Below are positions 17,462 through 53,273 of a stretch of DNA of 64,000 nucleotides, piece after piece; the first letter of the stretch is position 1, and each line of letters begins with the position of its first letter. Location: positions 1,488,001 to 1,552,000 of the forward strand of contig JAFCMP010000112.1 in the NCBI GenBank assembly GCA_017506865.1, read 5' to 3'. The stretch is from Tribonema minus (taxonomy: Eukaryota; Sar; Xanthophyceae; Tribonematales; Tribonemataceae). Below the pieces are notes generated by a model. That model ran no database searches, was not told where the DNA came from, and was given only the letters and a program-made list of their open reading frames with translations. The position numbers and the translations under genes are program-made.

Positions 17462-19183
17462 CTAAGTGTACGTGAGCCAATCGTGCTGCGCTAATTTTTC
17501 CAATGTGATTCTCTTGTCTGGATCTTTCCTGAAACCCTCTTTGCAAAAGTGTTTGAACCTCGAAATGTCGTCGTTCGTCCAGTTCTCATTCATCATCTTC
17601 AAGCACCTCGGAGACATGGTCGTTCCCATTGCGGGCGAAGAGTACATGACAGATTGCGAGAGCACCAGTCCTTCAGCGCCAAACGGCAGAGACCCGTATA
17701 CAACGTGGTGCATCGTGCCTACCAGAGACCACACATCAATGGCAGTGGTGATGATGCCAGTGGAAAATAGCTCGGGCGCCATGAATGCGGGAGTGCCCAT
17801 GAACTTGGCCCTCGTCAAGCAATCGCTCACTCTTATCGCGCACCCGAAATCTGTCAGTTTAGCTTTGCCATCGCTCATGATCAAAATATTCGCAGGCTTG
17901 ACATCACGATGCACATATCCTCTGCTGTGCATGTACGTCAGCGCGCTCATGGTATCGGACGCGACGTGCTGACACTGGAGAGATGTCTTCATCACCACGC
18001 CGACCAGAGAGCCCTTTGTAGCCAGCTCCTCCACCAAAAATGCTACGTCTAGCCTGGGATCGTTAATGACAACCAATAGATTCACAATGTTCTTGTGTTT
18101 GAGATCCTGAAGCGCCATGATCTCACGATGCAGTGACTCTTTCGCCTTGGATTTGTAGACCATCTTCATGGCCACTTTACCGTGGACGTCACTGCTGCAC
18201 TCGAACACGCGCGCCGTAGATCCAGTGCCCATGTGACCCGTGATGCTGAACTCGTTCACCTCCTTGAGGCTGCCCATTTCGTGTGACAGCTTCGTGGTGG
18301 GCACAACGGGCGCTAAGGTAATGTGTCCCTGTGATTCACACCTGTAGAGGACCATGCCGCGTTGCAACCTCGCCTTGACTTCCTTCATGACGCTGCGCTG
18401 GTACGCGGACTCCATTATGGACATGGTAAAATCGGTCCTGTCCATCAGCGTGCACGTAGACTGGACTGTCATGACGGCGTAAATACATCGAGACTGCACA
18501 AAGAAGCAGGCGCTCTGAGAATCGCTGAGCTTTTCTACAACGCCCAGTATGTGACCCGGGTAATAATGCATCTCGCCGTCATCACATTTGCTGTAAACCA
18601 CACCATCTATGACCACAATGATACGACCAGATAGCAGGATCACGTCACCGGCCTCAGCTACACCGTAAGTGAACGTTAAAGTTTGCAGGTCCACATACTG
18701 AATCGGAGGAATGTTGATACGCAGATAAGTCTGCCTGAACAACTGCCACTGTTTTGCACCGTACATGGCCTGCGGCAGATACGCACAGTGACATTCCTGA
18801 ATGCACTTAATGGTGTCCGCGCTTTCGTGCGCGGAATACATCAGCCCATGCGAATCGATCAACTCACCGAAACCGATGATGTCGCCACTTCCCTCGTTCA
18901 ACAACACGGGTCCTACATCTAGTACTATGTACATGCCCTCTATCGCCTTCCCGCGCTCACAAACAAACTGCCCCGGTTCAAACTTTCTTATTTCCAAACA
19001 TTGCTTCAGCTCACACACGTTACAGTTCTGAGCGTACCCGGTTTGCACGGCAGCCTCCTCCACATATTCAGGACCGCTCTTGTCTTCGTGATCACCATGA
19101 TCGGACCTGATTTGACTGCTATCGGAACTCGATACTGAACTGATCGATACGACGTTCAAGGTTTCGTCGTCTTCTATCATCAT
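17462..19183 (-). CDS. Tandem cNMP-binding-like domains fused to Ser/Thr protein kinase
   Basis: The 573-residue protein starts with an acidic Ser-rich leader. A cyclic-nucleotide-binding-like domain follows (about 50-155, with GFGEL), then a second, more divergent one (about 165-290), and a protein kinase domain (about 305-573). Kinase motifs are complete: glycine loop GHMGTGSTARVF, Lys in AMKMV, catalytic HRDVKPAN, DFG in TDFGCA, and APELF. The order matches cGMP-dependent kinases, but the kinase core reads more like MAP3K types. The Arg expected after the FGEL cassette is absent, so ligand binding is doubtful. A role in host signalling is inferred. Confidence 0.8.
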   Translation of the reverse strand: MMIEDDETLNVVSISSVSSSDSSQIRSDHGDHEDKSGPEYVEEAAVQTGYAQNCNVCELKQCLEIRKFEPGQFVCERGKAIEGMYIVLDVGPVLLNEGSGDIIGFGELIDSHGLMYSAHESADTIKCIQECHCAYLPQAMYGAKQWQLFRQTYLRINIPPIQYVDLQTLTFTYGVAEAGDVILLSGRIIVVIDGVVYSKCDDGEMHYYPGHILGVVEKLSDSQSACFFVQSRCIYAVMTVQSTCTLMDRTDFTMSIMESAYQRSVMKEVKARLQRGMVLYRCESQGHITLAPVVPTTKLSHEMGSLKEVNEFSITGHMGTGSTARVFECSSDVHGKVAMKMVYKSKAKESLHREIMALQDLKHKNIVNLLVVINDPRLDVAFLVEELATKGSLVGVVMKTSLQCQHVASDTMSALTYMHSRGYVHRDVKPANILIMSDGKAKLTDFGCAIRVSDCLTRAKFMGTPAFMAPELFSTGIITTAIDVWSLVGTMHHVVYGSLPFGAEGLVLSQSVMYSSPAMGTTMSPRCLKMMNENWTNDDISRFKHFCKEGFRKDPDKRITLEKLAQHDWLTYT

Positions 19184-28790: not shown

Positions 28791-29115
28791 TAGCCCTTGT
28801 GAATGGCACTTGCAATATTTAAATGGCACTTGCGAATAACACTTGCGAAGAGCCCTTGCAAAGAGCGCTTGCGAATGGCATTTGCAATTTGGAAATAGTA
28901 CTTGCAAAGAGCCGTTGCGAAGAGCACTTGCAATTTGAGCTTGCGAATGGCTTTTGCAAATAGCACTTGCAAAGAGCCCTTGCAAAGAACACTTGCAAAG
29001 AGCACTTGCTAAGAGCCCTTGCGAAGAGCACTTGCAAAGAGCACTTGCGAAGAGCACTTGCACGCAGCACATGCGAAGAGCACTTGCAAAGTGCAGCTGC
29101 GAAGCGCACTTACGA
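28791..29115. repeat. 13-bp tandem array, island 1 (first)
   Basis: The unit GCACTTGCGAAGA is repeated with small changes every 13 bp, mixed with a few longer spacers. It directly follows copy A of the dispersed repeat. Since 13 is not divisible by three, all frames cycle, giving spurious repetitive open frames. Confidence 0.8.
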
Positions 29116-32865: not shown

Positions 32866-33060
32866 AGCACAAGAGCACTTGCGAAGAGCACTTTCGAAGA
32901 GCACTTGCGAATAGCAATTGTGAATAGCACTTGCAAAGAGCACTTGCGAAGAGCACTTGCGAATAGCGATTGTGAATAGCGATTGTGAATAGCTCTTTGC
33001 GATAAGCACTTGCCAATAGAACTTGTGAATAGTGCTGCTTGCAAAGAGCACTTTGTGATA
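32866..33060. repeat. 13-bp tandem array, island 1 (second)
   Basis: Units of the type GCACTTGCGAAGA recur with spacers such as GCGATTGTGAATA. It follows dispersed-repeat copy C, as the array at 28791 follows copy A. The interval from 33061 to 33286 holds a further partial repeat (ATCCAAAATCCTCGGG...) and the helicase promoter. Confidence 0.75.
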
Positions 33061-39666: not shown

Positions 39667-40488
39667 ATGAACAGACAAGAGAGCAGGGACACATGTAAAA
39701 TTAAGCCAGGCGATATTATTGACAGGTATCGTATCTTGAAACTGCTCGGAACAGGCGCATCGGGTCAAGTGTTTCTGGTGGACGACAGCGGTAAACAGTT
39801 TGCTATGAAGGTCGTCAGGCTGCCAGATATGCATAAGACTAAAACTTACACCAGACTGAAGCGCGAGGTTGAGATCATGAAGCGCCTTGACAACGAGCGC
39901 ATCGTGAAATTGTACAGAGTACTGAAAGGCAGCACATGCATTTACTTGATATGCGAGTACGTCGCGGGAGGCGATCTGTTTGACAAGATCGCCTTGAACA
40001 ATCAACTGACAGAGACAGAAGCCAGGCGTTACTTTAGGCAGATTGTTGAGGGCATGGTGTATTGTCATTCTCAAAACATTTCGCATAGGGATATAAAACC
40101 GGAAAACATCATGATCACATCTTGCGATGACGTCAAGATTGCAGATTTCGGCCTGAGCCGCATCAAGACCCAAACGACTGTGGTGTTTGACACATTCTGC
40201 GGCACTTTGAACTATGTAGCTCCAGAATTGCTCGCCAAGAGACCATATGACTCCAAATGCGACATTTGGAGCCTGGGCATCATGCTGTATGTCATGCTAT
40301 CGGGCAGGTTCCCATACGACTCTGACGACGATGAAGAAACGGCGCACATGATTCTAGACGATCAATTCACTTTCCCTGCTTCCATTGTAGATGGTAATGC
40401 TAAGAATCTAATTAGCCAAATGCTTCAAAAGCGTCCTGAGTCAAGGCCTACCATGATCCAGGTCGCAGCGCACCAGTGGCTACTGTAG
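39667..40488 (+). CDS. Ser/Thr protein kinase, AMPK/SNF1-like
   Basis: The 273-residue protein is almost only a kinase domain with all key motifs: glycine loop LGTGASGQVF (about 28-37), Lys48 in AMKVV, catalytic HRDIKPEN (about 140-147), ADFGLS (near 160), and APELL. The core resembles CAMK/AMPK kinases (GGDLFDKIA, SKCDIWSLGIMLYVML). There is no regulatory domain. It probably phosphorylates host or viral proteins in the cytoplasm or virion. Its stop overlaps the methyltransferase gene end by 9 bp. Confidence 0.88.
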   Translation: MNRQESRDTCKIKPGDIIDRYRILKLLGTGASGQVFLVDDSGKQFAMKVVRLPDMHKTKTYTRLKREVEIMKRLDNERIVKLYRVLKGSTCIYLICEYVAGGDLFDKIALNNQLTETEARRYFRQIVEGMVYCHSQNISHRDIKPENIMITSCDDVKIADFGLSRIKTQTTVVFDTFCGTLNYVAPELLAKRPYDSKCDIWSLGIMLYVMLSGRFPYDSDDDEETAHMILDDQFTFPASIVDGNAKNLISQMLQKRPESRPTMIQVAAHQWLL

Positions 40489-43197: not shown

Positions 43198-43761
43198 TTA
43201 TAGATCCACTACGAGCTTCATCAGTGTGGCAATCGCCTTCTTTTGCAGAGTTTGCACTGTCCCGTCGTTGGCAATGGTCATGTCACATGTGATGGCGTCA
43301 ATGGCGCTCTCTGATGCGTGCTCGTCCGTTGCACCATCTGAGACCGGCCTCGCAATGCGTATGAGGACTGCACAGCTTCCTATGTAATCCCTGAGAAACC
43401 TCGCTTCGTTTTCGAAACGCACGTCAGTCACAATTGCCACATCAGATGTACAAGCATCAAGTCTGAACTGAAGGTGCTTGATCCAGTGCTCCTCGCCGAA
43501 GTTGGCGCGCACACATTCGGTGCCGAGTATCTGCATCATGCTCCTCCGCGACACGCCCCATCTCTCATCGATGGCTTCTTTCTTCTCGCGATCCTCAAGG
43601 TCGTCCTCGCTCAAAAGAAAGACAGCCCTACACGCTGCCTTGATGGGGTCGGCAAATGCGAACCTGGCAAATGCTGTGCCGTCAAACGCTACGGCATTGG
43701 CAAATGTATCCTTGCCGGCGCCTTTCCGCGCAACCAGGCCGACAATGAAATGAGGTGGCAT
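43198..43761 (-). CDS. Deoxynucleoside monophosphate kinase
   Basis: The 187-residue protein has a P-loop GLVARKGAGKDTFA at about 8-21, FADPIKAACRAVF, an LGTECVRANFGEEHWI segment and IVTDVRFENEA, all typical of the phage T4-type dNMP kinase family also found in NCLDVs. It converts dNMPs to dNDPs for viral DNA synthesis. Length is usual. It is divergent from the secreted-type gene at 43807. Confidence 0.82.
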   Translation of the reverse strand: MPPHFIVGLVARKGAGKDTFANAVAFDGTAFARFAFADPIKAACRAVFLLSEDDLEDREKKEAIDERWGVSRRSMMQILGTECVRANFGEEHWIKHLQFRLDACTSDVAIVTDVRFENEARFLRDYIGSCAVLIRIARPVSDGATDEHASESAIDAITCDMTIANDGTVQTLQKKAIATLMKLVVDL

Positions 43762-43806: not shown

Positions 43807-44145
43807 ATGTTGATGGTGTGCATTTTTGCTGCTTTGCTCACACCGATGGTGGCCATGGACATTGCCGATACTGTTATCCGATATTGCCACGCGCAGATCC
43901 TGCAGTGCGCACAGAGCGCTGCGTGCACATTCTGCTTTGATGTATTCGAAATGCCGCAGCTTCCTGACACGGACCAAATGGGCGTTTTTATGTACAACCT
44001 TGAGAAAGGATTCAAGGACGACTGCGATCTGAGCGACACTTCGATGACCGCCTTGATGTTGTGTTCCATGAATGTAATTTCCGACAAGCGAACTTACTTA
44101 GGCGCTCATGCGTCGTTTCTTTTTCATCGCTGCAATCGCAGCTAG
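43807..44145 (+). CDS. Small Cys-rich protein with signal-peptide-like start
   Basis: This 112-residue protein has a hydrophobic N-terminus (MLMVCIFAALLTPMVAM) that looks like a signal peptide. A region of six or more Cys follows (YCHAQILQCAQSAACTFCF). It could be secreted or lumenal. The 3' end overlaps the formin gene's 3' end by about 48 bp on the other strand. Confidence 0.45.
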   Translation: MLMVCIFAALLTPMVAMDIADTVIRYCHAQILQCAQSAACTFCFDVFEMPQLPDTDQMGVFMYNLEKGFKDDCDLSDTSMTALMLCSMNVISDKRTYLGAHASFLFHRCNRS

Positions 44146-46818
44146 CATTGCGTCTCTTCGCTTAGGCAGCTGTTCAATGATTGTGTTGATAGCTTCCGTA
44201 ATCTCTACAGTTGATGACTTCTTAGGATCTAGCACGAGGTAGGTGGCGGTGTCCTCGAACGCCTGCTGTGCGTCTTGAAACTCCTTGTCCAGCCCTGCCT
44301 GCGCAGCGTCAAATGTCTTTGTAAATTTATCGCACACGTCAACAAACTGGTCTGTCCACTTTTTCTCACAGACGAGTTCCATCACATCCTTGACGTTCGT
44401 CGCCTCCACCACACTCGTCTCCTTCTTCAATTTCTCGACATTTTTCGTAAGCATGTTGAACTCCGCCTTTATATCCTTCAGGTCAGTTCTTATCACAGCT
44501 GGCACATCCTGCAGCTCGGCTCTCAAGTCAAACATGGCAGAGCGCCCTGCATCTTGCATTAGATACTCGATGACTGCGTCAAACAAGGATTTCTTGGCTG
44601 CGGTTGTCTTTTCTGTGAACTTTTTGTAGAGTTCTGGCAGGTGCAATGCAGTCTGAAGAAACTTCGGGTTTTGCAAGTTGACGGAGTTGTGAAATTGCAC
44701 GCAGATTGCGAGAAAGTCCTTCAGCAGCTTGCTCTGCTTGATCTGAACCAGAGCGTTTGTGATCGCAGTGACTCTGTCGTGGAGGTACGAAACGGTGTCC
44801 GGCGTGGTTCTGATGATCTGTAAAATGTCCAGCCTCTCCTTGACCCTGGGCAACAGTGCGTACAGAGTGATGAGGAATAGAGGTATCGACTCCAACGAGT
44901 CCAAGGCGTCCTTGCACGGCTTGCCGCCTACCATGCAGTTGTCGATGCTGACTTTGACTTCTTCATTGATGAAAGACAGAGCATCAGACAGAGATTGCGC
45001 CACGTCAGGAGCCAAAGACATTTCCATCAATCCCTTCACGATGCTCTGATACATCTGGAGAGATTGAAGGCCGGCTGGTGTGCCGCCGGTGTTGCACTTG
45101 TGATCAGGGTCTCTGTAAATATCATGCAGCTTGCTCACTTTCATCTTTGCGATCGCAATGCTAATGTTTTGAACAGCTTTTGCATCGCCAATGTGCAGGT
45201 CTGCGAGAGTCTGTTTTTTCAGCGAAACCTCAACATACTTCTTCACATCGCCTCCGCTGACTGTCGCAATTGTCTCTGTGCCATCTTCATTTTGCATTTT
45301 GACCTTGTAAGAGCCATTTCGGGGGTTCAATGCCTGCACCACGGCCCTGGTGGTGTCAGAGCCTACTTGTACAGCGTCATTCACTGCGAACTGTAGCTTG
45401 GGGATCGCTGCCGTGTCTGTATCTCGCATATAGACAATCGGGACGGGAGAGAGCTTACTCGTGTCCAATGCCTTGAGCACCGCATGGCTCGGGTCATCAA
45501 CCAGCTCCACACTGTACACACCGCTTTTCACATCTCTCACCACCGCTTTGTCAGAACTGCCTTGGCTATCACTCAGAACATGTACAACTTGTCCAGTTTG
45601 CCACTCATTCAGTGGACTGAGCTCCTGGTATCCCTTCTTCGCATCGCCTTCGCTCACAGAAATTGTGAAGTCGTCCCCATTGATTTCTTTGACGGTTCCT
45701 CTCACTTCATTGCCGTTGTCCTGGAATGAAATGTCTTGACCGACACTGTAAATGGGGTCCATCTTTACCAAGTACCCCTTGTATGCGTCCACAGCCAGTA
45801 TTCTCCCCGTCTGACTGTCTTTGGTAGTTCTAACGAGAGTGTCCACAGTCAGCAATGGTAAGAATTGACTGACCAGGTCATGAGGCACTTCAAACTTGGC
45901 GGCATTGTCAAAAACTGACCCTGTCTGACTCTTCTTGTCAGTGACAAAGAACTGGCGTTTGACAGAGGGGAATGCGTTTGGCGGCCCGAGTGGCGCCGCC
46001 GCTGCGCCGCCCCGAGGTCCCAAAAGCCCACCGGGAGGTGGCAGACCCCGCGGCGGCATGCCCGGCAATCCTGGTGGCGGTCCACGTGGTGGTGGCATGC
46101 CCGGCAATCCTCCTGGAGGTGGTGGCGGCGGGCCACGTGCTTGCACTCCAGGCAGTCCCGGCAATCCTCCTGGAGGTGGTGGCGGCGGGCCACGTGCTTG
46201 CACTCCAGGCAGTCCCGGCAATCCTCCTGGAGGTGGTGGCGGGGGACCACGTGGTGGTACACCAGGCAGTCCCGGCAATCCTCCAGGAGGTGGTGGCGGG
46301 GGACCACGTGGTGGTACACCAGGTGTGAGTACAGGCTGTAGCTGCCCTGATGCATGAGGTTGTGGTACGAGCAGCGACTGGCGCAGTTGTTCTATGGTAC
46401 CCTGTTGTGCTTGAGTTGCGGCGTTTAGTGTCTTGTTTTGCACATCCAAGGCCCGCTTCTCCGTGTCCAACAAGAGAATATCCTTTTCCAGAGTTGATTT
46501 TTGTGAGGCGATGGTGATCTTGTCGGCCAAGCAGTCATTCAACTGAACCGTCAACTTCACAATGTCTGCCTGAAGCTGTATCAAGTGCGTCTCGAGGCTT
46601 GACGTTCTTGGCGAGCTGATTGGCAACGAAGGTTTATCTACTTGAAGCCAGTGGTCCACTTCTGTTTGATCTGGTGAGTAGAACCCCCAGGTGTTCATAT
46701 CGAACGGGTCAAAGAAGGGAATCTCTAAATGGGGTACAGAGGATGACATGCGCTGGTCCGTCGCCAGCTGTTTTTGTTGACTCATGAAAGACCTTCGGTG
46801 TGTCGAACGGCTTTGCAT
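44098..46818 (-). CDS. Virus-encoded formin (FH1-FH2)
   Basis: The 906-residue protein is built as follows: an N-terminal polar region, a coiled coil at about 74-150, an FH1-like Pro-rich region (about 165-280, with 19-residue GPPPPPPGGLPGLPG units), a beta-rich region of three or four KOW/Tudor-like stretches (about 300-545), and an FH2-like domain (about 550-890). In the last, NISIAIAKMKVSKL, LLPRVKERLDIL, SKLLKDFLAICVQFHN and FKDV-type helices follow the FH2 order, ending with FEDTATYLVLDPKKSS. Formins nucleate and elongate actin filaments with FH1 recruiting profilin-actin. The usual GN-x-x-N motif is changed to CVQFHN. Confidence 0.75.
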   Translation of the reverse strand: MQSRSTHRRSFMSQQKQLATDQRMSSSVPHLEIPFFDPFDMNTWGFYSPDQTEVDHWLQVDKPSLPISSPRTSSLETHLIQLQADIVKLTVQLNDCLADKITIASQKSTLEKDILLLDTEKRALDVQNKTLNAATQAQQGTIEQLRQSLLVPQPHASGQLQPVLTPGVPPRGPPPPPPGGLPGLPGVPPRGPPPPPPGGLPGLPGVQARGPPPPPPGGLPGLPGVQARGPPPPPPGGLPGMPPPRGPPPGLPGMPPRGLPPPGGLLGPRGGAAAAPLGPPNAFPSVKRQFFVTDKKSQTGSVFDNAAKFEVPHDLVSQFLPLLTVDTLVRTTKDSQTGRILAVDAYKGYLVKMDPIYSVGQDISFQDNGNEVRGTVKEINGDDFTISVSEGDAKKGYQELSPLNEWQTGQVVHVLSDSQGSSDKAVVRDVKSGVYSVELVDDPSHAVLKALDTSKLSPVPIVYMRDTDTAAIPKLQFAVNDAVQVGSDTTRAVVQALNPRNGSYKVKMQNEDGTETIATVSGGDVKKYVEVSLKKQTLADLHIGDAKAVQNISIAIAKMKVSKLHDIYRDPDHKCNTGGTPAGLQSLQMYQSIVKGLMEMSLAPDVAQSLSDALSFINEEVKVSIDNCMVGGKPCKDALDSLESIPLFLITLYALLPRVKERLDILQIIRTTPDTVSYLHDRVTAITNALVQIKQSKLLKDFLAICVQFHNSVNLQNPKFLQTALHLPELYKKFTEKTTAAKKSLFDAVIEYLMQDAGRSAMFDLRAELQDVPAVIRTDLKDIKAEFNMLTKNVEKLKKETSVVEATNVKDVMELVCEKKWTDQFVDVCDKFTKTFDAAQAGLDKEFQDAQQAFEDTATYLVLDPKKSSTVEITEAINTIIEQLPKRRDAMLAAIAAMKKKRRMSA
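46035..46335. repeat. 57-bp tandem repeat inside formin FH1 region
   Basis: Four near-identical 57-bp units start at about 46115, 46172, 46229 and 46286, each coding 19 residues of the Pro-rich FH1. Such arrays change copy number readily. Confidence 0.8.
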
Positions 46819-46856: not shown

Positions 46857-46990
46857 TAAGATTCGCAAAGTGCTCTTCGCAAGTGCTCTTCGCAAGTGCT
46901 CTTCGCAAGTGCTCTTCGCAAGTGCTATCAAAAAGTCACACCCTAAGATTCGCAAAGTGCTCTTTGCAAGTGCTCTTCGCAAGTGTTATA
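46857..46990. repeat. 13-bp tandem array, island 2 (inverted)
   Basis: The unit GCAAGTGCTCTTC is the reverse complement of the island-1 unit. Two blocks are separated by a duplicated AAAAAGTCACACCCTAAGAT. Confidence 0.75.
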
Positions 46991-46999
46991 ACAAAACCA

Positions 47000-47960
47000 C
47001 ACCCTAACATTGAGATTGCAGCAATGGCACTCTTAACAGCGCCCGATGTTGGCTGTTTGTGCCATTCTGATTGCAGCGATAGCATACTTAGCAGCAACGC
47101 TAGGAACTCCATCCTGGACAAACTGTCTCTGACAGCTCGCTGTGTTAGCCCGGCCTTCTCGCTATTTATTCTCGCTGTTTCCAGCAGGACAGCCAAGAGG
47201 CCAAAAGGCTCAGATGAGCAGCGCGCGCTGTTGGCTGTTTGCGCTATTCTGATTACAGTGATGGCACACATAGCTGTATCGCTGTTGGCTGCTTGCGCAA
47301 TTGTCTCTGACAGCTCGCTGTGTTAGCCCGGCCTTCTCGCTGTTTAGTCTCGCTGTTTTCAGCCGGATTGTCAAGAGGCAGCAGGAGCTGGCTGTTTGCG
47401 CCATTGAGATTGCAGCAATGGCACTCTTAACAGCGCCCGATGTTGGCTTTTTGCGCCATTCTGATTGCAGCGATAGCACACTTAGCAGTAACTTTAGGAA
47501 CTACATCCTGGAACTGTCTCTGACAGCTCGCTGTGTTAGCGGCCTTCTCGCTATTTATTCTCGCTGTTTCCAGCAGGACAGCCAAGAGGCCAAAAGGCTC
47601 GGATGAACAGCGCTAGCTGGCTGTTTGCGCCATTTTGATTGCAGTGATGGCACTCTGAACAGCGCCCGATGTTGGCTGGTTGCGCCATTCTGATTGCAGC
47701 GATAGCACCCTTAGCAGTAACGCTAGGAACTCCATCCTGGACAAACTGTCTCTGAAAGCTCGCTGTGTTAGCCTTCTCGCTATTTATTCTCGCTGTTTGC
47801 AGCAGGACTGCCAAGAGGCCAAAAGGCTGAGATAAACAACGCGCGCTGTTGGCTGTTTGCGCCATTCTGATTGCAGCACTGGCACATTTAACAGGAAGCG
47901 CTAGGAGCTCCATCCTTGAGTCTTGACACATCGTCTTTGACAGCTTGCTGTTTTAGCCCG
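47000..47960. repeat. Long degenerate tandem repeat, noncoding
   Basis: Blocks such as TCTCGCTGTTTCCAGCAGGA and CAAGAGGCCAAAAGGCT recur at about 47170, 47560 and 47790, with a variant near 47345. The block TTGGCTGTTTGCGCCATT recurs many times. Unit length is roughly 200-300 bp. Open frames here are short and made only of repeats, so no gene is called. Confidence 0.7.
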
Positions 47961-48111: not shown

Positions 48112-48245
48112 CTGCATGTGCTCTTCGCAAGTGCTTTTCGCAAGTACTATTTGCTGTGCTCTTCGCAAGTGCTATGTGCAAGTGCTCTTCGCAAGAACTA
48201 TTTGCTTTGCTCTTTGCGTGTGCTCTTCGCAAGTACTCTTGGTGC
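48112..48245. repeat. 13-bp tandem array, island 2 (second)
   Basis: The CTCTTCGCAAGTG unit recurs with changes. A partial dispersed-repeat end (CATAACTACCCGAACTTCAC) lies before it at about 48076. Confidence 0.7.
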
Positions 48246-48655: not shown

Positions 48656-49534
48656 TCACATCAGGGGCATCCTGCTAAGTATACGCAGGTACTCCTGGCG
48701 CTTCTCCTGCAGCTGTTCAGGTGTAAACAGCAATTCGCTCATGTCATCAGCTCCAATTTGCGTGTGATTATACTCTCGAAGAAACTGCGCGCACAGTGTG
48801 TGGTCCTGTGTGGCGATGTCGTCTACTGAATTGATCAGCACAGCCAGGTCATACAGCTTTGCGGCTCTGAAATCTGCATTGTCGTTCGCAAAAAACAGTG
48901 TACGGGATGTGTCCACAAATGTAACACAAGTGGACTCGCAGATCACGTTGCCAGCGTGCAGATCTCCATGTACGAAACCCTTGTCGTGCAGGCCCTTGAG
49001 TACATGCGCACACATTGGCATCAAGTCTCCTGGTACAATCCTGCCGCTGGCGAGTACAGTGTGCAGTGACTCTGTGCCTGCATCTCGCATGAGCACAAAC
49101 CCGAAGTTGACTCCTGCTGCACGCTTGACCACACATGCGTCAAGTACTTCAGGAAATACGTCCGGCACGCCCAGATTGACAGCATGCAACATGCCGACCT
49201 CATGATCGAAGCTAGCACGTTTGGTCATGTACCAAGGTTCACCCAATACGTTCATCCCTTTCACACTGCTCAAGTTAACCAGCTTCACGACGACATCAGC
49301 GTTCTGGTCGGTCCTGCCAGCCAGCACTATTCCGTAGCTTCCCCGGTTCCTCACATCGGTAATGCGGTACCTATGCTTACTGGGCAACTGCCGTGTTATG
49401 GCATCGCACACATCCATACCAACGCGAGCTGCAGGTGATATGCCCAGCACGTCAAAGAAGAAATCGCGACACTCGAATTCAATCTTGCACTCACTTCGAG
49501 CACGTGAGTGCGCGACCTTGGTGCTCTTGTTCAC
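48656..49534 (-). CDS. Kinase-like protein, 5' end cut off by retroelement
   Basis: This frame encodes an atypical protein kinase: glycine-rich RGSYGIVLAG, Lys in VVVKLV, catalytic HGDLHAGN and an FVDTSR in place of DFG. That resembles RIO/ABC1 or bacterial-like kinases. It has no good start: GTG 49534 is formal and the first ATG is 49417, which would leave the kinase core (about 253 residues). The original 5' end lies beyond a 153-bp insert at 49712-49785. A TATAAATA in the insert could serve as a new promoter. Confidence 0.7.
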   Translation of the reverse strand: MNKSTKVAHSRARSECKIEFECRDFFFDVLGISPAARVGMDVCDAITRQLPSKHRYRITDVRNRGSYGIVLAGRTDQNADVVVKLVNLSSVKGMNVLGEPWYMTKRASFDHEVGMLHAVNLGVPDVFPEVLDACVVKRAAGVNFGFVLMRDAGTESLHTVLASGRIVPGDLMPMCAHVLKGLHDKGFVHGDLHAGNVICESTCVTFVDTSRTLFFANDNADFRAAKLYDLAVLINSVDDIATQDHTLCAQFLREYNHTQIGADDMSELLFTPEQLQEKRQEYLRILSRMPLM

Positions 49535-49838: not shown

Positions 49839-51104
49839 ATGTCTGACACTGTGAGTCCGCCTTCTGCCCCCAGTCCTGCAACACGTGCTGCAGCCCCCAG
49901 TCCTGAAACACCGGCTCAAGAATGCTCGATCTGTCAACTCACTGACACAGCTCTCGTAGCCACCTCTTGTGGGCATAATTTTCACCTTTCATGCCTACTC
50001 AAGTGGAACCAAAGTCAAACTCGTAGGGGCTACCCTACCACGTGTCCGACATGTCGTGAGCCTCTCATAGACTCAGCTACGAGCGCGCCCAATGCGAGTG
50101 CGCAGCCTCGACCGATTCCAATGCCGTTGATTGAGAGCATCTGGTCTTTTCAGGTACCCAACACTGCTGCCAACGGCTCCAGAAGCGATGCGCTGCGCAT
50201 GGCAGACACACTTTTTGCTATGCTCCACACACCGCCAGTCACAGCTCAAGTTCCAGTTCCGGCTCCGCCTGCAAACCCGCCCGCTGCGCCACCAGCAAGC
50301 ATGAATGCACCACAGCAGCAAAATGTGCAACTCCAGTTTGACCCGCCTCCAGACGACGTCGACATGGAAATCGAGTACGACATGCTCATGGATGCACTGT
50401 CTGATGGCGACCACATCATCATGCGCCAACGGATTTCAGAATGCCCTGCGGTTGTGCACTGTCGCTCTGAAGACGGCACTACTGCGTTACATCATGCGAT
50501 CGCGCGTGATGACCAAGAAGCGGCCGAAACACTGCTCGCGAATGAAGCATCCGCGCGTGCAGCCACCAACTACGGCATAACACCGCTACACCTGGCAGCC
50601 ATGCGTGGAAGTGCGGAGCTAGTCACCCGACTCACTTTCCACGGCGGTTTCATCGATGCCAGAGACTCATCTGGCGACACCCCTCTGCACTACGCTGTTC
50701 GCAACATGGATGCCAACATGACCTTCAAGCTCGTCACCGGATCTGCCTCAGTCGATGTCCCCAACCTGAAAGGCGAGACTCCGCTCCACCTGACTGCGCG
50801 TCACGGCTCTCCCATCATGAACGCTGTCGTCATTGGCACTTCACGTCACATTGAGAAAACGGATCAGCTCGGTAACAATGCGCTGCACATTGCAGCACAA
50901 TGCCACAATGTCGATTTCGCGCGCCGCCTCATGGAACGTTCACCTTCCATGATACGCTTTGCCAGAAATTTGGAGGGAAAATCGCCATCGGACATCGCTT
51001 TTGCCACCAACAACATACTTATGCACAATATATTTTCTGAGGCGCAGGCTGCAGACACTATGGACGATACCGACGAAGAATACGACGAGGACGGCGAAAA
51101 TTGA
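49839..51104 (+). CDS. RING-H2 / ankyrin-repeat protein
   Basis: The 421-residue protein starts with a Pro/Ala-rich leader. A RING-H2 finger follows (Cys29, Cys32, Cys44, His46, His49, Cys52, Cys69, Cys72), then a Pro-rich linker and about six ankyrin repeats from about residue 185 to 395 (GTTALHHAI, GITPLHLAA, GDTPLHYAV, GETPLHLTA, GNNALHIAA). The tail is acidic (DDTDEEYDEDGEN). It should be an E3 ubiquitin ligase whose ankyrin part picks the substrate. The promoter gap is shared with the broken kinase gene. Confidence 0.88.
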   Translation: MSDTVSPPSAPSPATRAAAPSPETPAQECSICQLTDTALVATSCGHNFHLSCLLKWNQSQTRRGYPTTCPTCREPLIDSATSAPNASAQPRPIPMPLIESIWSFQVPNTAANGSRSDALRMADTLFAMLHTPPVTAQVPVPAPPANPPAAPPASMNAPQQQNVQLQFDPPPDDVDMEIEYDMLMDALSDGDHIIMRQRISECPAVVHCRSEDGTTALHHAIARDDQEAAETLLANEASARAATNYGITPLHLAAMRGSAELVTRLTFHGGFIDARDSSGDTPLHYAVRNMDANMTFKLVTGSASVDVPNLKGETPLHLTARHGSPIMNAVVIGTSRHIEKTDQLGNNALHIAAQCHNVDFARRLMERSPSMIRFARNLEGKSPSDIAFATNNILMHNIFSEAQAADTMDDTDEEYDEDGEN

Positions 51105-52169: not shown

Positions 52170-53273
52170 ATGAGTACTGAAATCCACGCGTATCTCGCTG
52201 CTTTTCTTGAGGATACCAAGGATACACGTGCCGTCCTGGATTGCATCAGCCAGAAGTGGCCGCGTTGCAGAGCTACTTATCTGTCGTGTGTCAAAGCTGC
52301 TTGGATGGCACAAAATATCTACTCGGACGACTGCGTGGCCAAAATGTCTGAAATAGATGCTCTGTTAAAAAAGAAGTTGGTAGGATCAAGAGGCAAAACA
52401 CGCGAGGCAGTCAAGACAGCCATAGACGACTACGACAAGTTCAAACAGTTATCGCTCAAAGAGAAGGTCGGGGTGCAGAAACTGTTGAGGCAAGAGCCAC
52501 TTACAGGACTCGAAGATGTCGATGATGGCATATTGAAACTGCCCATTTTACCGCAGTACGTTCGTGACCTTCACTTGACCAAACAAGAGTCCGATGAGGT
52601 CGCACGCAAATCCATGGAAGCGCTGGCCATCAAAAGCGTCAACTCTGTGTGTGTCGATGCCAGTGACCTGATCTCCAAGTGCGAAAAAACACTAAAAGAC
52701 GTGAAGAGCAACGCCTTCGACCTGGCGGCCGCCATTGCGCTGACGTGTGGCAGAAGAATGACGGAAATATTCTCCGTTGGCAAATTCGAAGCGGTTGAGG
52801 GCGAGGAACGCACTCTCGCATTTTCGGGCCAGGTCAAGAAACGATTCGGCAGTCATGACGCCACCAACTTCGTTCCAACGCTTGCGAAGGCATCCGTCTT
52901 CCTCGATGCGATCAACAGGTTACGGGTCGAGAAATCGTGTACCGGTCTATCCAACAGAGACGTCAACCTGAAATGGTCCAATTCGTGCCAGAGCGCAGCT
53001 AGAAGGCTGTTGGGTGATGACGGACACTTTCATGAGTTACGAGCCATGTACGCCGTTATTGCGTTCAACGCCACATTGCCACACTCTTACTCACTGAACG
53101 CATTCGTCTCACGCGTGCTGGGGCACGTAGGCCTAGGTAACTCGCTCACATACGCATGCATCAACGTCAGCAACCTGGCCCCTGCTCACAAGTTTCAATG
53201 GTCCTACCTGAATGCTTATGGGGCCGCGCCGAGCCCCAAACGCAAGCCGCTGCGCGAAGTCATACGCAAGTGA
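52170..53273 (+). CDS. Protelomerase (telomere resolvase)-like tyrosine recombinase
   Basis: The 367-residue protein has the tyrosine recombinase/telomere-resolvase set: Arg195-Arg196 in LTCGRRMTEI, Lys224/225 in SGQVKKR, His288-x2-Arg291 in HELRAMYA, His319 in VLGHVG, and candidate nucleophile Tyr328 in SLTYAC. The helical N-terminal half and the RAMYA context are closer to protelomerases than to integrases. Such enzymes close linear DNA ends into hairpins. The tail is basic. A plain tyrosine recombinase remains possible. Confidence 0.75.
   Translation: MSTEIHAYLAAFLEDTKDTRAVLDCISQKWPRCRATYLSCVKAAWMAQNIYSDDCVAKMSEIDALLKKKLVGSRGKTREAVKTAIDDYDKFKQLSLKEKVGVQKLLRQEPLTGLEDVDDGILKLPILPQYVRDLHLTKQESDEVARKSMEALAIKSVNSVCVDASDLISKCEKTLKDVKSNAFDLAAAIALTCGRRMTEIFSVGKFEAVEGEERTLAFSGQVKKRFGSHDATNFVPTLAKASVFLDAINRLRVEKSCTGLSNRDVNLKWSNSCQSAARRLLGDDGHFHELRAMYAVIAFNATLPHSYSLNAFVSRVLGHVGLGNSLTYACINVSNLAPAHKFQWSYLNAYGAAPSPKRKPLREVIRK

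Follow-up and report, generated by a model that had tools for sequence, protein, structure and literature searches.

The window analysed here is a stretch of 64,000 nucleotides from Tribonema minus, positions 1488001-1552000 of contig C112 (2,115,883 bp) in a eukaryotic genome of 158.18 Mb and 554 contigs. On its minus strand lies a formin-like gene, P0001, whose product is composed of a heptad-patterned stretch, an FH1-like proline-rich region, an unusual stretch of about 250 residues and a C-terminal FH2 core (Table 1). The frame is also open in the genome assembly, where it counts 909 amino acids with the upstream codons and holds no internal stop. P0001 is a diverged formin-related FH2-core protein of an endogenous giant virus, and not a full formin. 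The narrower term is used because the GNY/FMN dimerisation motif of formins reads HNSVN in this protein. The first Gly of the motif is not decisive by itself, since one formin locus of the host reads ANFLN.

The homology of the C-terminal part to FH2 domains is close to certain. The Pfam FH2 family matches residues 581-882 with 71.1 bits against a cut-off of 34.8 (E 1.2e-19), and residues 535-906 scanned alone give 74 bits. A hidden Markov model (HMM) that we built from six formins finds residues 637-878 with 69.0 bits, plus a weak piece of 3.2 bits at residues 532-563. When AlphaFold2 (AF2) models were compared with the PDB by Foldseek, all 31 matches at E<=0.001 were formins, the models having included formin rows; the FH2 core fold of the C-terminal half is thus supported at the level of the models. 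A sequence-only reading of this DNA had assigned the C-terminal half to FH2 from landmarks in the expected order, and had named a placement outside the FH2 fold as what would speak against it. The landmarks are present in that order, and the profile and structure searches place this half within the fold. What that reading missed is that the Pfam match spans positions 113-369 of the 372 in the profile and so does not cover the N-terminal lasso and linker part, and that the window belongs to viral DNA lying within a cellular genome. In the alignments, P0001 retains two key actin-contact residues of formins, I554 in the knob and K737 in the post. Their counterparts in mDia1, Ile845 and Lys994, are described as the centres of two actin-binding sites (PMC2948013; here and below, papers given by PMC number are cited from the portions of their text that were available).

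The lasso, by which FH2 domains are joined, was not detected in the stretch preceding the core. A lasso hidden at residues 283-330 was considered but gained no support. A Pfam scan of residues 267-339 gave no FH2 match, and an HMM of the lasso columns reported no match in P0001; the shuffle count for this HMM is uninformative, as the real segment has no reported score and 1196 of 3000 shuffles scored something. Pairwise lasso alignments with six formins were not significant either (the best was reached by 40 of 500 shuffles, the other five by 81-425 of 500). As a control, the full formin HMM recovered lasso columns in only two of the five formin loci of the host, so a diverged lasso may still be present in P0001. 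The dimerisation motif is altered as well. Six reference formins all have its Gly and both of its Asn, and the five host loci read GNFLN (three), GNELN (one) and ANFLN (one). It has been stated that every residue of GNY/FMN takes part in dimerisation, that ForI of Dictyostelium also departs from the motif, that three Dictyostelium formins have Phe in place of the lasso tryptophans, and that the length of the linker varies (PMC555941). The most informative feature of the protein, as judged from its sequence, is that the lasso is apparently lost and its docking motif changed, while the actin contacts are retained.

Residues 74-150, which are free of Pro and have a single Gly, probably form a coiled coil. 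With a 49-residue window their heptad pattern was reached by 6 of 1000 shuffles and with a 63-residue window by 3 of 1000; both windows were tried on a slightly shorter segment after a 35-residue window had failed. The coiled coil that the sequence-only reading had placed here is thus favoured by the longer windows and not by the shorter one. The poly-Pro FH1 region that it had recognised is borne out: residues 161-285 are 43% Pro and 24% Gly, and exact P6 tracts begin at residues 173, 192, 211 and 230, upstream of FH2. The region is encoded by a 57-bp DNA unit present in 3.7 copies with 95% matches. The tracts are FH1-like and may bind profilin. The KOW/Tudor-like barrels proposed for the following stretch could not be confirmed. 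Residues 307-566 gave seven sub-threshold Pfam matches, the best to a rotavirus capsid family (E 0.023) and one to an SH3 domain (RimP C-terminal, E 0.044). Internal repeats at residues 319-533 are weak, as six pairs were reached by 12, 22, 62, 197, 328 and 640 per 1000 shuffles. The strands modelled there are of low confidence, with an AF2 predicted local distance difference test (pLDDT) of about 25-44. Barrels of the SH3-like, KOW or Tudor type in residues 286-535 are plausible on these grounds. Of the proposed formin with FH1, barrels and FH2, then, the FH1 region and the FH2 core stand, while the barrels are unproven, the lasso is undetected and the dimerisation motif is changed.

Table 1. 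Features of P0001 and its surroundings, in positions of the window
Feature	Position	Strand	Remarks
Formin-like gene P0001	44098..46818	-	906-aa single frame, no interruption
Heptad-patterned, proline-free stretch	46369..46599	-	residues 74-150; probable coiled coil, possible dimeriser
FH1-like proline-rich region	45964..46338	-	residues 161-285; four P6 tracts
Stretch where the FH2 lasso is expected	45214..45963	-	residues 286-535; lasso not detected, barrels unproven
FH2 core (knob, coiled coil, post) without lasso	44101..45222	-	residues 533-906
Ile554, knob actin contact	45157..45159	-	aligns with mDia1 Ile845 / Bni1 Ile1431
HNSVN replacing the GNY/FMN dimerisation motif	44677..44691	-	residues 710-714
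Lys737, post actin contact	44608..44610	-	aligns with mDia1 Lys994 / Bni1 Lys1601
Deoxynucleotide monophosphate kinase (DNMK)	43198..43761	-	gene adjoining P0001 downstream
Telomere resolvase	52170..53273	+	viral marker on the other side of P0001
13-bp repeat array TTCGCAAGTGCTC	46862..46985	.	just upstream of the P0001 start, also bounded at 46876-46975; recurs elsewhere in the viral block
Other arrays of the 13-bp repeat TTCGCAAGTGCTC	28863-29090, 32873-32963, 48124-48238		

P0001 very likely resides in an endogenous block of a giant virus (Nucleocytoviricota). Among 41 window proteins that were scanned, out of 131 open reading frames (ORFs) of at least 100 amino acids, many of them overlapping, viral-type matches included those to the telomere resolvase, PCNA, DUF5906 ATPase, SF2 helicase, DNMK, DUF5832 and DUF7197 families. 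We take DUF5832 and DUF7197 to be giant-virus families. Elsewhere on the contig, genes for a major capsid protein and VLTF3 lie at 1,104,336 and 1,133,272, respectively. With at most one mismatch allowed, the window has 19 occurrences of the 13-bp repeat, against 0.13 expected. Its exact double unit is found at 12 sites in the genome, nine on C112 (990,691-1,554,164), one on C110 and two on C523, and the exact 13-mer was seen in five of 45 sampled loci, all on C112; the repeat is also present at L030, L036, L037 and L040. Its role is perhaps regulatory. P0001 is considered to be embedded in the viral block because it lies among viral genes and because the repeat is mostly confined to that block on C112, which may be one element or several adjoining ones. 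The window does not represent a free virus, since it lies within a eukaryotic genome that has matches to actin and to profilin as well as five formin loci, the FH2 matches of which fall in separate frames. The description of the gene as virus-encoded therefore holds for an endogenous giant-virus block and not for a known free virus.

The composition of the gene was compared with that of window genes and of host formin exons. Codon-position GC contents of P0001 are 0.59/0.41/0.57 (0.54/0.35/0.59 without FH1) and resemble those of other window genes, the 21 measured having third-position values (GC3) of 0.55-0.75. Nine host formin exon frames, each delimited by stops and so containing some intron, were measured as well, and the GC3 of every one (0.63-0.96) exceeds that of P0001.

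Several further observations concern the block and the host genome. Matches to the major capsid protein number 10 in the genome, and those to VLTF3 number 8; both occur on C112, C179, C90, C21 and C223, capsid matches only on C40, C144, C485 and C541, and VLTF3 matches only on C9 and C445. The paired matches on C179, C90, C21 and C223 show further giant-virus elements in this genome. The telomere resolvase family is represented by 12 strong sites on 11 contigs (E<=1.3e-17), including that of the window, and by 22 weak ones, and the strong sites suggest several endogenous viruses with a telomere resolvase. Upstream of P0001 there is also a 229-bp tandem repeat of 2.2 copies (47386-47885). A protein with a RING finger and ankyrin repeats (49839-51104) is a candidate ubiquitin-ligase-type protein. 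A protein kinase with a clear Pfam match is found at 17462-19183 and one with a weak, sub-threshold match at 48656-49534, and 39667-40488 appears kinase-like by reading of the ORF. Beyond the window, C112 encodes a cysteine-rich protein of the EsV-1-7 type, in which the motif is present in 11 stretches (L033:3156-4637).

P0001 stands far from all formins with which it was compared. Over the shared core columns its identity to the 11 formins, five of which are the host loci, ranges from 16 to 24%. To those five it is 17-21% identical, whereas they share 24-50% among themselves. Its tree branch measures 5.8-6.7 changes per column, and because this branch is too long P0001 cannot be placed in the tree and its donor is not traceable. 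By a six-frame search of the genome the gene is single-copy, no second P0001 having been found. A protein search with the full length returned P0001 and two formins at E<=0.001, and one with a profile of three sequences returned P0001 only at E<=1e-5 (8000 candidates scored in each); with region 535-906, P0001 was again the only match at E<=0.01. In the IMG/VR collection no confirmed relative was obtained, whether the scan started from P0001, from an FH2 alignment of six formins or from the telomere resolvase, SF2 helicase or DUF5906 protein; the scans other than FH2 used six short peptides each, and records very near the source genome may be omitted. The FH2 scan would miss relatives resembling P0001 because its single degenerate pattern is the GN motif, which P0001 does not have. 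A structure search of BFVD gave 519 matches at E<=10 and none at E<=0.001. No virus-encoded formin was found in the literature searched, which did not extend to most subscription papers and bioRxiv preprints, so that one may be reported elsewhere. Neither formin nor profilin was found by a term search of the main text, as available, of four giant-virus papers, one of them surveying genes for ubiquitin, the cytoskeleton and trafficking. Within the limited sensitivity of these searches, the earlier statement that no described viral formin is known agrees with what was found.

The reading that we prefer, with a probability of roughly 0.45, is that P0001 is a strongly diverged formin derived from some eukaryote, encoded by an endogenous giant virus and acting on host actin. 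The gene would have been acquired by the virus from a eukaryote. The FH1-like P6 tracts may recruit profilin-actin of the host, the FH2 core would hold the barbed end of the filament, and two subunits may be joined by the N-terminal coiled coil instead of the lasso. The stretch between FH1 and FH2 would replace the lasso and linker, and structures of the virus or the cell may be what it anchors the protein to. As a guess, the purpose might be placement of the viral factory, or transport or exit of virions. The following points weigh against it. HNSVN keeps two of the five GNY/FMN positions, and the heptad pattern was reached by 332 of 2000 shuffles in the first test, with the 35-residue window. 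The AF2 models are weak (pLDDT 48.7 and 54.3), and the fold result of Foldseek is not independent because they contain formin rows. No orthologue of P0001 was found against which selection could be measured. In addition, the FH2 of Plasmodium formin 1 without its lasso existed mainly as a monomer, and in the pyrene assay polymerisation was no faster with it (PMC3302767); therefore, a lasso-less FH2 may not build filaments. The same construct still bound filaments and induced filaments in low salt (PMC3302767).

In the main rival reading, P0001 would be a viral actin inhibitor, in which a lasso-less and largely monomeric FH2 core caps barbed ends, blocks their growth and damps the host cytoskeleton. 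The undetected lasso, the altered dimerisation motif and the kept actin contacts agree with it, as does the statement that the core FH2 of mDia-family formins alone inhibits polymerisation, most likely via barbed-end binding (PMC3302767). However, the four intact P6 tracts would be superfluous in a pure capper, for which FH1 is not needed, and the heptad pattern suggests an alternative way of dimerisation; we consider an inhibitor rather improbable. To judge from the sequence, the mechanism may be that of an assembly factor dimerised by a coiled coil or that of a lasso-less capper. It is unlikely that P0001 is instead a canonical formin whose lasso (residues ~283-330) has diverged past detection and whose next stretch is inserted in the variable linker between lasso and knob. 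Local likeness of KKSQ-TGSVFD to KPSQVTGTVFN of P0002 would fit this, the Dictyostelium substitutions and variable linkers cited above show a precedent, and the control on the host loci indicates that lassos or exons can be missed. Against this stand the insignificant lasso alignments, the Pfam scan without FH2 match and the change in GNY/FMN, which is part of the lasso/post interface.

As a further rival, a captured gene decaying without function in an inactive provirus could account for the very long branch, the single copy and the lack of an orthologue, and retroelement frames were found in two sampled stretches of C112 (one above the Pfam cut-off, one just below). Still, 906 uninterrupted codons with a codon-position composition like that of other window genes, and the kept actin contacts, speak against decay, which we regard as quite unlikely. 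That a retrocopy of a host formin landed in the provirus after integration is hardly credible: the gene is uninterrupted and the host has five formin loci, but the five resemble one another more closely than P0001 resembles any of them, and its GC3 is like that of viral genes.

Like mDia1, DAAM1, FMNL3, INF2 and Bni1, P0001 has an FH2 core, poly-Pro tracts upstream and the Ile and Lys actin contacts. Unlike these formins, it has no detectable lasso, HNSVN for GNY/FMN and the long stretch between FH1 and knob. Its Pfam listing at E<=10 has six families, none of which is GBD, FH3 or DAD. It shares an FH2 core without lasso with the Plasmodium construct, which is a laboratory truncation, whereas P0001 is a natural protein with FH1 tracts and a probable coiled coil (PMC3302767). 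Giant-virus genes for actin, myosin and kinesin have been reported (PMC8215601, PMC8407384, PMC11915834), together with dynamin and tubulin tyrosine ligase (PMC11915834), and P0001 resembles the actin, myosin and kinesin genes in being a eukaryotic cytoskeleton gene in Nucleocytoviricota. The words 'formin', 'formins' and 'profilin' do not occur in the available main text of these three papers, nor does the whole word 'formin' in the available text of PMC13236599 and PMC12993054. As in this block, a telomere resolvase is found in phaeoviruses with the endogenous elements of Ectocarpus and in coccolithoviruses, which are large dsDNA algal viruses or elements (PMC13236599, PMC10222054). A tentative and doubtful further step is that P0001 is the first virus-encoded formin, in which the lasso and docking motif, by which FH2 dimers are held in the cited structures, were discarded, pairing was taken over by an N-terminal coiled coil and a viral targeting module was placed between FH1 and FH2, giving the virus an actin-assembly machine of its own. 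If true, a viral filament-assembly factor would extend the giant-virus set of actin, myosin and kinesin to control over the place and time of actin growth. A natural lasso-less FH2 would also make it testable whether an FH2 domain can be processive if it is dimerised by other means.
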